Shown piece after piece: positions 251-5,397 of a DNA stretch of 5,397 nt (positions within the stretch are counted from its first letter, which is position 1; each line of letters opens with the position of its first letter). Origin of the DNA: Thiohalomonas sp. (GTDB taxonomy: Bacteria > Pseudomonadota > Gammaproteobacteria > GRL18); the NCBI GenBank assembly GCA_023864145.1, contig JAIVER010000115.1, forward strand, positions 1 through 5,397, in the 5' to 3' direction. The position numbers and the translations under genes were made by a program. The notes under the pieces were generated by a model that was not told where the DNA came from, made no database searches, and saw nothing but the letters and a program-made list of their open reading frames with translations.

Positions 251-362
251 CTAAGGTATGCGGGTTGGCCTGCGCGGGGACGCTGCAAGTACGTCCATGT
301 AACGCTTAGACTCGACATCCATGTCTCTCCAAACCTCACCCAGACCAACCCGCATACCTTAG
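251..362 (-). repeat. Structured palindromic repeat, copy A
   Basis: The arms 251-272 and 341-362 pair at 21 of 22 positions, and the outer 18 bp are a perfect inverted repeat (CTAAGGTATGCGGGTTGG). Pairing continues in the same register at 274 and at 276-279 with 334-337 (one G-T pair). In total 26 of 29 positions pair without any bulge. The stem closes a 54-nt loop at 280-333, which on the minus strand matches the loop of copy B at 48 of 54 positions. The loop holds two 10-bp direct repeats (291-300 and 315-324, ACRTCCATGT as read on the plus strand) with a 24-bp period. There is no coding frame of note and no T-run typical of an intrinsic terminator. It lies just upstream of the IS630-like gene start, but nothing shows that it belongs to that element. 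Confidence 0.9.
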
Positions 363-389
363 CACTCAATTCGTACTTTATTTGTTCTA

Positions 390-471
390 GTGTTGTCCCA
401 AAGCAAAAGCAAGATCAAAAGATTAAGAAAGTGCTTTTTCTATTTCTTTTGACTTTGCTTTGGGACAACAC
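390..471. repeat. 82-bp near-perfect palindrome (hairpin) between repeats A and B
   Basis: The arms 390-407 (GTGTTGTCCCAAAGCAAA) and 454-471 are a perfect 18-bp inverted repeat. Pairing continues inward with gaps: 410-414 with 447-451, 420-422 with 439-441, and 425-427 with 434-436. The result is an almost continuous cruciform-forming sequence centred near 430.5. It could be a small MITE-like element with 18-bp terminal inverted repeats, or a transcribed hairpin downstream of ccmF. I see no target-site duplication in the immediate flanks and no U-run after either arm, so neither a fresh insertion nor a classical intrinsic terminator is directly supported. Confidence 0.85.
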
Positions 472-494
472 CCTTAAAAATAAATAACATTGAA

Positions 495-610
495 GTGTTG
501 GGTAGACTGCTACGTATTAATGGGGTTTGGCGAGACATGGACGTCGAGTCTAAGCGTTACATGGACGTATTCAAAGCGTCCCCATTCATACACACCAGTC
601 TACCCAGCAC
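495..610 (+). repeat. Structured palindromic repeat, copy B
   Basis: The arms 495-509 (GTGTTGGGTAGACTG) and 596-610 pair at all 15 positions with one G-T wobble. Pairing continues in the same register at 511, 514-517 with 588-591, and 519-525 with 580-586. In total 27 of 31 positions pair without bulges. The enclosed loop 526-579 is 54 nt long, the same length as in copy A, and matches it at 48 of 54 positions. The loop carries two exact copies of ACATGGACGT (535-544 and 559-568), 24 bp apart. The stem sequences are largely different from those of copy A. The element ends 22 bp before the ccmF stop codon, so it would be transcribed, as its complement, in any read-through ccm mRNA. There it could stabilise the 3' end or attenuate read-through; this role is inferred. 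Confidence 0.9.
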
Positions 611-632: not shown

Positions 633-2585
633 TCACGCAGCCACAGTTTTCTTATTCGCTACCTTCAAACGATAACGTCTATCCAGAACAGCAACAAAAC
701 CACCCAGACCCATAAAAATACAACCCAACCAGATCCAGCGAATAAACGGTTTGTAATAAATTCTTAAACTCCAGGCACCATTGTCTAATTGCTCTGCTAA
801 TGCCACAAATAAGTCACGGAACAGACCAGCATCAATACCCGCTTCAGTCATCGGCATACCACGCACCTGATAAATTCGTTTTTCTGGTGTTAATACAGCC
901 ACTGTTTCACCTTTTTCACCGACTACACTGATAGCACCTTCATAAGCAATATAATTGGGCCCCTGATGGCTCTTAGCTCCCTCAAAGGTAAACGAATAAC
1001 CTCCCAGAGAGATAGTATCGCCGGGTTCCATACGTAAATCTTTTTGTAGACTCATTGATTCAGTAAATGTCACACCGACGACAAAGATCGCAACACCAAT
1101 GTGTGCCAGATTCATACCAAAAAAAGATAAAGGAATTTTCTTAAAGGCAGTGAAGGCATTACCTTTATTTCTCACTCTATCCACAAAGCTCATAACAACA
1201 CTCGAAACAATAAGCGTGGCCAGACCAATGCTTATTGACACCATCACTGAGCCTTTTTCAAGCAGGAGCATTGAAAAACCAACGGCAAAAGCAACAAATA
1301 CAGGAATAATCATGTGTTTAGCAACACGAGAAAAATTATCACCCTTCCAGCGCATCAATGGTGCCATTGACATAATAACCAATGCAGGCAGCATAATAGG
1401 TACAAACACTGCGTTGAAATACGGTTTGCCAACGGATAATTTACCCAGATCAATAAGCTGATCTAATAGTGGATATAAGGTAGCTAATAAAACCATGGCA
1501 CAGGCAACAGTCAATAGAATATTACCCAACAGCATAAAGGTGTCTTTAGAGAACACATTAAAGTAACCACCACCTTTCATTGATGGGCCTCTAATGGCAT
1601 AAAGTGTTAAAGAACCAGCAATCACCAGAACAAGGAAGGCTAAAATAAACGAACCCCGGGTCGGATCAGATGCAAAGGCATGTACAGAGACCAGGACACC
1701 GGAGCGAACCAGGAACGTACCCAGCAAGCTTAAAGAGAAAGCAAGGAGTGATAATAAAACAGTCCAGCTTTTAAATGCACCATGTTTTTCAGTTACTATC
1801 AATGAATGCAATAAAGCAGTAGCAACCAGCCAGGGCATAAATGAAGCATTTTCAACCGGATCCCAGAACCACCAGCCACCCCAGCCCAATTCATAATAGG
1901 CCCACCAGCTGCCTAAAGCGATACCCAGAGTTAGAAATACCCAGGCAATAACCGTCCAGGGACGAGACCAACGTGCCCATGCTGAATCAAGCTGACCAGA
2001 AATCAACCCGGCAATGCTAATACTAAAGACAACAGAGAGACCAACATAGCCCATATAGAGCATAGGCGGGTGAATCACCAGACCAAAATCCTGTAATAAA
2101 GGATTCAAATCTTTACCATCTAAAGCGCCAGGGAAAAGGCGTTCAAAAGGATTTGAAGTAAATATGATGAATAATAAGAAACCAATACTCAACATGCCCA
2201 TCACAGACAGAACTCTGGAAGTCATGGACAGAGGTAAACTCTTACTAAAAAAGGCCACCGCCATGGTCCAGCCGGAGAGGATCAGCAGCCACAATAAAAA
2301 GGAGCCCTCATGGGCTCCCCAAACGGCTGAGATTTTAAACATCATCGGCAGGGCTGAATTCGAATTGGCAGCCACATAGCGTACTGAAAAATCATCTATA
2401 GTAAACGAATAGGCCAGTGCAGCAAAAGACACTGAAATTAAAAAGAATTGAGCAACCACCGCATAGCGGGAAAACTGCATTAATTGAAGGCTGTTTTTAT
2501 GAGCGCCGATCATGGGTAGAGCAGCAAGAATAATCGAAACAGCCAGGGCAATTGCCAGGGAAATATTCCCAATCTCAGGTATCAT
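633..2585 (-). CDS. ccmF: CcmF, heme lyase subunit of System I cytochrome c maturation
   Basis: CcmF transfers heme from holo-CcmE to the CXXCH motif of apocytochrome c on the periplasmic side of the inner membrane, normally together with CcmH. The protein has 650 residues, close to the roughly 647 of E. coli CcmF, so it is full length. The tryptophan-rich WWD segment lies at about residues 227-252 (SWWAYYELGWGGWWFWDPVE). Four histidines correspond to the heme-handling set of E. coli CcmF (H173, H261, H303, H491): H172 in VIHPPMLY, H260 in LLHSLIV, H302 in SVHAFASDP and H495 in NLAHIGV. There are many hydrophobic segments, a periplasmic loop at about 510-608 and a final membrane segment near 615-634. 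The ATG overlaps the ccmE stop (ATGA), and AGGAG lies 10 nt upstream (2596-2600). Repeat B begins 22 bp after the stop, where ccmG is usually found. Confidence 0.97.
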   Translation of the reverse strand: MIPEIGNISLAIALAVSIILAALPMIGAHKNSLQLMQFSRYAVVAQFFLISVSFAALAYSFTIDDFSVRYVAANSNSALPMMFKISAVWGAHEGSFLLWLLILSGWTMAVAFFSKSLPLSMTSRVLSVMGMLSIGFLLFIIFTSNPFERLFPGALDGKDLNPLLQDFGLVIHPPMLYMGYVGLSVVFSISIAGLISGQLDSAWARWSRPWTVIAWVFLTLGIALGSWWAYYELGWGGWWFWDPVENASFMPWLVATALLHSLIVTEKHGAFKSWTVLLSLLAFSLSLLGTFLVRSGVLVSVHAFASDPTRGSFILAFLVLVIAGSLTLYAIRGPSMKGGGYFNVFSKDTFMLLGNILLTVACAMVLLATLYPLLDQLIDLGKLSVGKPYFNAVFVPIMLPALVIMSMAPLMRWKGDNFSRVAKHMIIPVFVAFAVGFSMLLLEKGSVMVSISIGLATLIVSSVVMSFVDRVRNKGNAFTAFKKIPLSFFGMNLAHIGVAIFVVGVTFTESMSLQKDLRMEPGDTISLGGYSFTFEGAKSHQGPNYIAYEGAISVVGEKGETVAVLTPEKRIYQVRGMPMTEAGIDAGLFRDLFVALAEQLDNGAWSLRIYYKPFIRWIWLGCIFMGLGGFVAVLDRRYRLKVANKKTVAA

Positions 2586-5180: not shown

Positions 5181-5397
5181 TTAGTGCACGGCTCTGCTTG
5201 GTGGATAGGCAATCATGGACAGCCAGTCATCCACTTTTTGGGCAGAAGTGCCTTTGTAACAAGCCTGCCTGCGTGTTTTTAGGTTGTACCAAGCTTTAAA
5301 AAGCTTTAGAAAATTCTGATTAACGCCTTTTCGCACATAGAGATAAGGACGTAACACTGAATTAAATCCTTCAATCGCACTGGATGCCCGATAACGA
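5181..5397 (-). CDS. Transposase, C-terminal part (runs off right edge)
   Basis: The minus-strand frame is open from the right edge (first complete codon 5396-5394) to a TAA at 5181-5183, giving 71 residues. It contains RYRASSAIEGFNSVLRPYL, then YVRKGVNQNFLKLFKAWYNL, KTRRQACYKGTSAQKVDDWL and SMIAYPPSRAVH. The pattern of a Ser-Ser-x-x-Glu motif with an Asn three residues on, a basic linker, and then KGTSA...VDDWL...YPPS resembles the C-terminal end of a DDE-type transposase. On this reading the glutamate in SSAIEGFN would be the last catalytic acid, which is inference. I cannot assign the IS family with certainty. Related proteins as I recall them carry a few more residues (such as ELLTG) between KGTSA and VDDWL, so a short in-frame deletion is possible. 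The first two catalytic acids would lie outside the window. Confidence 0.6.
   Translation of the reverse strand, partial: RYRASSAIEGFNSVLRPYLYVRKGVNQNFLKLFKAWYNLKTRRQACYKGTSAQKVDDWLSMIAYPPSRAVH

Follow-up and report, generated by a model that had tools for sequence, protein, structure and literature searches.

The locus next to ccmF in a Thiohalomonas sp. genome raises the question of what kind of element conserves the loop of an inverted repeat while its stem varies. The window analyzed, a stretch of 5,397 nucleotides, contains two such inverted repeats in divergent orientation (Table 1). The preliminary description of this DNA had given their coordinates, their strands, the 54-nt loops and a loop identity of 48/54, all of which were exact. 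For the stem of copy A, the pairing held, with 25 Watson-Crick and two G.U pairs at 27 of 29 sites instead of the 26 reported, and for copy B the reported 27 of 31 was reproduced (26 Watson-Crick and one G.U). The claim that the stems differ in most positions was too strong: in an alignment that starts at the core and proceeds outwards, the arms of the two copies are identical at 15 of 29 positions per side and differ at about half. The top palindrome score in the window was 22, against 8-12 in 30 dinucleotide shuffles, so the palindromes are beyond chance. The folding z-scores were -8.4 (A) and -6.3 (B) for the strands carrying ATGGAY and -6.0 (A) and -4.5 (B) for the opposite strands.

Besides ccmF, Pfam recognized CcmB, a CcmE domain and a cytochrome c assembly protein in the window. 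Copy A has the same sense as the ccm genes. The HTH frame beside copy A is likely a transposase. Another open frame (5181-5396, minus strand), which extends past the end of the contig, appeared transposase-like by eye and had no Pfam or NCBIfam match. The palindrome between the copies reads GTGTTGTCCCAAAGC...GCTTTGGGACAACAC and is separate from both of them.

Table 1. Features of the two repeats and their neighbors in the window.
Feature	Position	Strand	Basis or detail
HTH protein start, next to copy A, cut by contig edge	1-216	-	HTH_23 above cut-off, HTH_29 just below
Copy A, TwoAYGGAY-type module	251-362	-	5' arm 334-362, core 280-333, 3' arm 251-279
Copy A, second ANGGAN hexaloop (ATGGAC), C-G closed	293-298	-	Sequence, loop consensus, SELEX consensus (available text of PMC7652899)
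Copy A, first ANGGAN hexaloop (ATGGAT), C-G closed	317-322	-	Sequence and loop consensus
AT-rich purine/pyrimidine palindrome between divergent copies	377-484		Arms 377-427 and 434-484
Copy B of the module	495-610	+	5' arm 495-525, core 526-579, 3' arm 580-610
Copy B, first ANGGAN hexaloop (ATGGAC)	537-542	+	Sequence and loop consensus
Copy B, second ANGGAN hexaloop (ATGGAC)	561-566	+	24 nt from the first
ccmF, adjoins copy B	633-2585	-	PF16327 and PF01578

Relation to the TwoAYGGAY RNA family

In the Rfam search of the window, copy B matched the TwoAYGGAY family (RF01731) with 31.5 bits, below the cut-off of 43, and copy A was not among the matches listed, which is why the window copies are called diverged homologues and not members by score. 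Both copies, like the family alignment, have the RF01731 layout of an outer stem around two hairpins with AYGGAY loops. Another copy in the window's own genome, on contig C171, reached 44 bits against the same cut-off. RF01731 matches were found in 21 of the 57 genomes, the window's own included, and were above the cut-off in 11 of the 57; the 14 control genomes gave none. In the wider class, where nine candidates were scored in most genomes, RF01731 matches (E <= 0.001) occurred in at least 18 of 274 genomes, representing at least 16 of 221 genera. Long microRNA matches in Rfam were rejected, as their scores were under their cut-offs and only the hairpin shape was in common.

The preliminary description had named a match to a catalogued IS, MITE or Rfam family as what would remove the novelty. 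The repeat is real; the family is not an unknown one, and the novelty drops because the core matches RF01731. Among its candidate explanations, a structured RNA family was borne out by this homology together with the covariation and the conserved loops. RF01731 belongs to Rfam clan CL00106, which we take to be the clan of the CsrB/Rsm RNAs.

TwoAYGGAY was first reported by Weinberg et al. 2010 (PMC2864571), and its binding by CsrA was proposed from motif matches by Gardner and Eldai 2014 (PMC4333381), so the predicted CsrA link of the family is already known. In the available parts of these two papers, TwoAYGGAY is described as a probable RNA that is not cis-regulatory, or as a candidate CsrA-binding sRNA. 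The module shares with it the two AYGGAY-loop hairpins within an enclosing stem, the tandem GA in hairpin 1 and the occurrence in Gammaproteobacteria, whereas high copy number, carriage by miniature transposons (MITEs), divergent pairing and a strand test are unmentioned in those parts (PMC2864571, PMC4333381).

The loops were aligned in 139 of 145 cores, all from palindromes selected for having one ANGGA or more. Both loops gave the consensus CANGGAYG, in which conservation was 97-100% at C, A, GGA and G. The variable places were the two N of ANGGAN, where T accounted for 87% and 94% in loop 1 and for 82% and 68% in loop 2. The start-to-start distance of the two sites was 24 nt in 102 of 125 cases. 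According to the available text of PMC7652899, the SELEX consensus of CsrA is RUACARGGAUGU, with an ANGGAN hexaloop and AC paired with GU, and CsrA bridges sites 10-63 nt apart. Both window copies have ANGGAN hexaloops with AC/GU closure, spaced by 24 nt in each copy and so within this range. A csrA gene was detected in the window's genome (G000:C65:439-591, 88.3 bits) and in 50 of the 57 genomes; genome G015, with many module copies, gave no csrA match in an assembly that is 81% complete. Judged by loops and layout, the module is predicted to bind CsrA, and a sponge or cis-regulatory effect on CsrA would be a further prediction.

Covariation and strand asymmetry

After duplicates, stems below 26 and cores outside 44-58 were dropped, 102 clean elements remained, with very long and near-perfect stems. 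In these elements conservation lies in the loop and variation in the stem, unlike the conserved stem of REP/BIME palindromes. Alignment A1 comprises 64 of the 102, both window copies included; copy B supplied its structure. In A1, 87.6% of the cells were paired, against 38-46% with the partners slid and 56.0% in shuffles, a share biased upward because the structure came from this one row and with related rows counted repeatedly. Two-sided change was present in 846 cells, compared with 163-256 slid and 265 shuffled. Thirty-eight of the 42 pairs showed two-sided change, a measure that is weak taken alone since 30 of 500 shuffles attained the same number. The covariation under structural selection that had been proposed from two copies became strong with the 64 sequences.

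The covariation extends to the two short internal hairpins. Hairpin 1 has an invariant closing C-G, then a pair of type AU, CG, GC or UA, and at the third place GC or AU; the second and third pairs are unbroken in all 64 cells. In hairpin 2, the closing C-G is again invariant, followed by AU, CG or UA and then by UA, CG or GC, with none broken in 64 and 62 cells, respectively; of the 64 cells at the fourth, outermost pair, 48 were broken. Non-standard cells made up most of pair 44-59 (37/64) and of pair 45-58 (43/64), as expected from the tandem GA described for TwoAYGGAY.

Covariation was also seen at a single orthologous site. Between G015 and G011, copy B at the ccmF site differed in three pairs, none of them broken, through two double compensatory changes and one change retaining G.U. 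The window's copy B differed from that of G015 in 7 of 31 pairs, of which four were broken in the window and one in G015 only; the window copy is decaying.

For the strand test, 167 palindromes (145 unique) were chosen by symmetric scoring that ignored loop content. ANGGA was on one strand only, or in excess there, in 148 of the 167, a share enriched by choice because most loci were fetched as RF01731 matches; exactly two ANGGA were present in 134. In the 145 unique palindromes, G.T outnumbered A.C on the ATGGAY strand by 270 to 58. Per element, 99 leaned toward G.T and 10 toward A.C, with 36 ties, and this excess indicates that the folded strand has the ATGGAY sense. Copies from G032 and G048 were excluded from the covariation and strand counts.

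Copy number, carriers and the ccmF site

Model R1, trained on both window copies and thus matching these by construction, gave at least 847 matches in 21 of the 24 family genomes (E <= 0.01, up to 150 candidates scored per genome). There were 17-121 matches in each of 19 of the 24, four in the window's genome and one in G016. When matches were read back, the detector confirmed 43 of 50 (24/30 and 19/20). Among the remaining seven, L321 and L334 had two ANGGA loops, L308, L327, L330 and L333 had one of two loops a base shorter, and L343 had a single GGA loop left. Searches for the module in plasmids, phages and viral contigs found nothing; in the viral set a single core pattern was used.

Adjacent modules in the family formed 28 distinct pairs (one locus supplied two of the 29 rows), of which the window's genus had 26 and the sister genus g3 two. 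All 28 were divergent, at 74-270 nt from each other, and by a simple pattern 21 of the 28 had a center with purines on the left and pyrimidines on the right. Single modules occupied 69 loci, including 54 from the window's genus; contig ends truncated some of these loci. Outside the family, f158 (G180, G290) has divergent pairs, G113 has a pair pointing in one direction, and in G032 the pairs face each other. By eye, the core in L105 and L010 seems to be reversed with respect to its flanks, as though recombination between the stem arms had inverted it.

Nearly all elements lie outside long ORFs, with a median gap of 33-54 nt to the gene on the 3' side, and 9 of 105 overlapped an ORF of at least 90 aa. 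Gene orientation around single MITEs was (+,+) in 15 cases and (-,-) in 7, and in the g1 set (+,+) in 9, (-,-) in 21 and (+,-) in 16, which gives no clear support for the model either way.

The new finding is that the module is dispersed and mobile, as it was found in four kinds of short non-coding MITE. In the relatives, these carriers have terminal inverted repeats, target duplications and many dispersed copies. Their backbones, with the set of ends GTAACTAYTCAG, GGTTCTTCAC, ACCTGARYTCTGG and CATAGGTAGGTACTT, differ in these ends and in target duplications of 6, 8 or 10 bp, which points to different transposases and hence to movement of the module between carriers. The duplications were compared with shuffles, which test only the chosen widths (8, 8, 6 and 10) because boundaries and widths were picked after the sequences had been viewed. 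In g3, the module lies inside 170-bp palindromic elements with GTAACTAYTCAG ends and 8-bp target duplications; 26 of the 47 duplications of this family were perfect, with a mean of 7.06/8 against 2.95 shuffled (best shuffle 3.64). The module was detected in 12 of these 47 elements, 8 of which had perfect duplications. For the GGTTCTTCAC ends, found in the window's genus, 9 of 22 duplications were perfect (mean 6.0/8 against 2.97 shuffled), and two such MITEs in G015, of 583 and 581 bp, contain a divergent pair, with duplications of 7/8 and 2/8. In G009, a backbone with ACCTGARYTCTGG ends and 6-bp duplications had 7 of 10 perfect, and their mean of 5.7 compares with 4.51 in shuffles, the best of which reached 5.3. 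The G009 backbone with CATAGGTAGGTACTTAAG ends and 10-bp duplications had 4 of 7 perfect, with a mean of 8.71 where shuffles averaged 4.81 and peaked at 8.14, an eighth locus being without a complete end pair. L351, a member of this backbone, was unlisted by Rfam for RF01731 at E 0.01.

A possible fifth carrier is a candidate of about 1 kb in G032, where 11 of 20 fetched loci had two modules, facing each other in 11/11, and one end, GTAACTACTCAGCGC, was present in three of the six printed. With lenient criteria, a search of G009 and G013 for GTAACTAYTCAG ends gave 3 perfect of 17, mixed rows and many false pairs, and was not used as support. In the search for a parent transposon, three long intervals between terminal repeats held ordinary genes and no matching transposase. 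Two groups of GTAACTAYTCAG elements were also recorded. L168, L171 and L176 (G021) are MITEs of this family, 216-217 bp long, with an extra third hairpin, AAAGTTCT...AGAACTTT, within the core. The window's own genome has GTAACTAYTCAG MITEs of 98-150 bp on contigs C34, C37, C105, C114, C156 and C172 (L236, L238-L241, L247), with target duplications of 7-8/8 bp (5/8 on C46) and an interior in which the detector found no module.

The structured RNA and the mobile element considered in the preliminary description both apply, as an RNA module carried by MITEs. Its folded single-stranded DNA substrate for a transposase is unneeded, since the carriers have ordinary terminal repeats and target duplications. 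Its further suggestion, a core inserting into pre-existing palindromes, appears not to be favored because many copies agree at the stem base (..A|G..C|G..).

At the window's own site, G015 has dsbE (TIGR00385, 180 bits) in the place of the HTH frame and a similar pair between ccmF and dsbE. ccmF was matched in 15 of the 16 genomes of the genus. An element past ccmF was found in 8 of these 15: by script in G000, G001, G006 and G015, and by eye, as interrupted, recombined or decayed remains, in G002, G008, G011 and G014. The other seven (G003, G004, G005, G007, G009, G012 and G013) have a short spacer or none, so the ccmF-dsbE site is polymorphic. Beside the window copies, neither terminal inverted repeats nor a target duplication was found, and near the stems of paired units 3 of 27 had a repeat of at least 7, against about 12% in shuffles, which is no excess. 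The window pair is best seen as an old, decaying insertion. In the ccmF loci of G011 and G014 (L150, L153), short extras bearing ATGGAT seem, by eye, to be inserted in the first loop.

Alternative explanations and predicted role

The reading we prefer, with a probability of about 0.72, is that the window repeats are partly decayed TwoAYGGAY-type copies of a module that is MITE cargo in relatives, and that the transcript would be a hairpin with two ANGGA loops, a predicted target of one CsrA dimer. It is improbable that the palindrome matters at the DNA level only, with stems kept by template switching or by cruciform or folded-strand transposition and the RNA without a role. The very long near-perfect stems, the MITE carriers and the two cores that look flipped (L105, L010) would suit such an origin. 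Against this account stand the strand-specific excess of G.T over A.C and the two short internal hairpins, whose pairs covary and whose ANGGA loops are conserved, since arm-to-arm repair or a symmetric DNA palindrome would be expected to yield neither. C-to-T change linked to transcription could raise G.T, yet it also implies transcription of that strand.

The position of the elements near genes and outside long ORFs, and the insertion between ccmF and dsbE, would also agree with a REP-like mRNA stabilizer, terminator or insulator whose GGA loops bind a partner other than CsrA or nothing. This is unlikely, as it leaves two conserved ANGGA hexaloops at a near-fixed 24-nt spacing unexplained, and REP-like explanations were dropped when ordinary terminal repeats and target duplications were found. 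A vertical, non-mobile family of host sRNA genes of the CsrB/RsmY kind would share the loop logic and the clan of RF01731, and the ccmF-dsbE site is common to several species. The high numbers of matches in 19 of 24 family genomes, the patchy presence at that site and the target duplications speak against it and make it very improbable.

Under the preferred reading of a MITE-carried CsrA target, the window copies would have arrived by transposition, and transcription of the module would run on its ATGGAY strand, driven by a promoter of its own or by an adjoining operon. The transcript may then fold into a long hairpin displaying two ANGGA loops, with one CsrA dimer predicted to bind per module. 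Many copies could titrate CsrA or place module-bearing host transcripts under its control. A divergent pair would supply one sense copy in whichever orientation it was inserted; in the window, copy A alone shares the sense of the ccm genes, and a ccm transcript would thus carry one decoy. A broader proposal is tentative and may well fail: at least four transposon families would have taken up a CsrA-bait RNA, and their insertions would create CsrA-bound operons and a genome-wide sponge, selfish or domesticated.

CsrB, CsrC and RsmX/Y/Z carry many CsrA sites in one or few sRNAs. The module resembles them in its ANGGA motifs in hairpin loops and in the expected sequestration of CsrA dimers, but it has one site pair and many genomic copies. 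REP/BIME palindromes are dispersed and intergenic and often form inverted pairs. The module is likewise a dispersed intergenic palindrome, often in an inverted pair, with a conserved loop and a variable stem, the reverse of REPs. The carriers agree with bacterial MITEs, including the sRNA-producing QMITEs of Coxiella, as described in the available part of a review (PMC10969869): short, non-coding, mostly intergenic, in high copy number, with terminal repeats and target duplications. They differ in sharing a conserved, likely protein-binding RNA across different backbones; the term 'RNA-binding' is absent from the review, and CsrA is not named in its available part (PMC10969869). The TAACTGA repeats of Beggiatoaceae are also abundant and intergenic, with a proposed post-transcriptional network, but they are direct heptamers, and in the available text their author judged canonical CsrA binding unlikely (PMC4679880). 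Among the open-licence papers listed, surveyed by title and the start of the abstract, none joining CsrA sites to MITEs was found, and a database paper that names both treats them apart in its available part.

With these results, a catalogued RNA family gains a concrete and testable proposal for its role, that of a predicted CsrA decoy. If the reading is true, the RNA-bait role would account for a loop that is conserved in a palindrome free to vary. The predicted decoy would then be transposon cargo, in copy numbers that could tilt the cell's CsrA balance, and mobile DNA would be spreading a protein-binding RNA instead of a gene.
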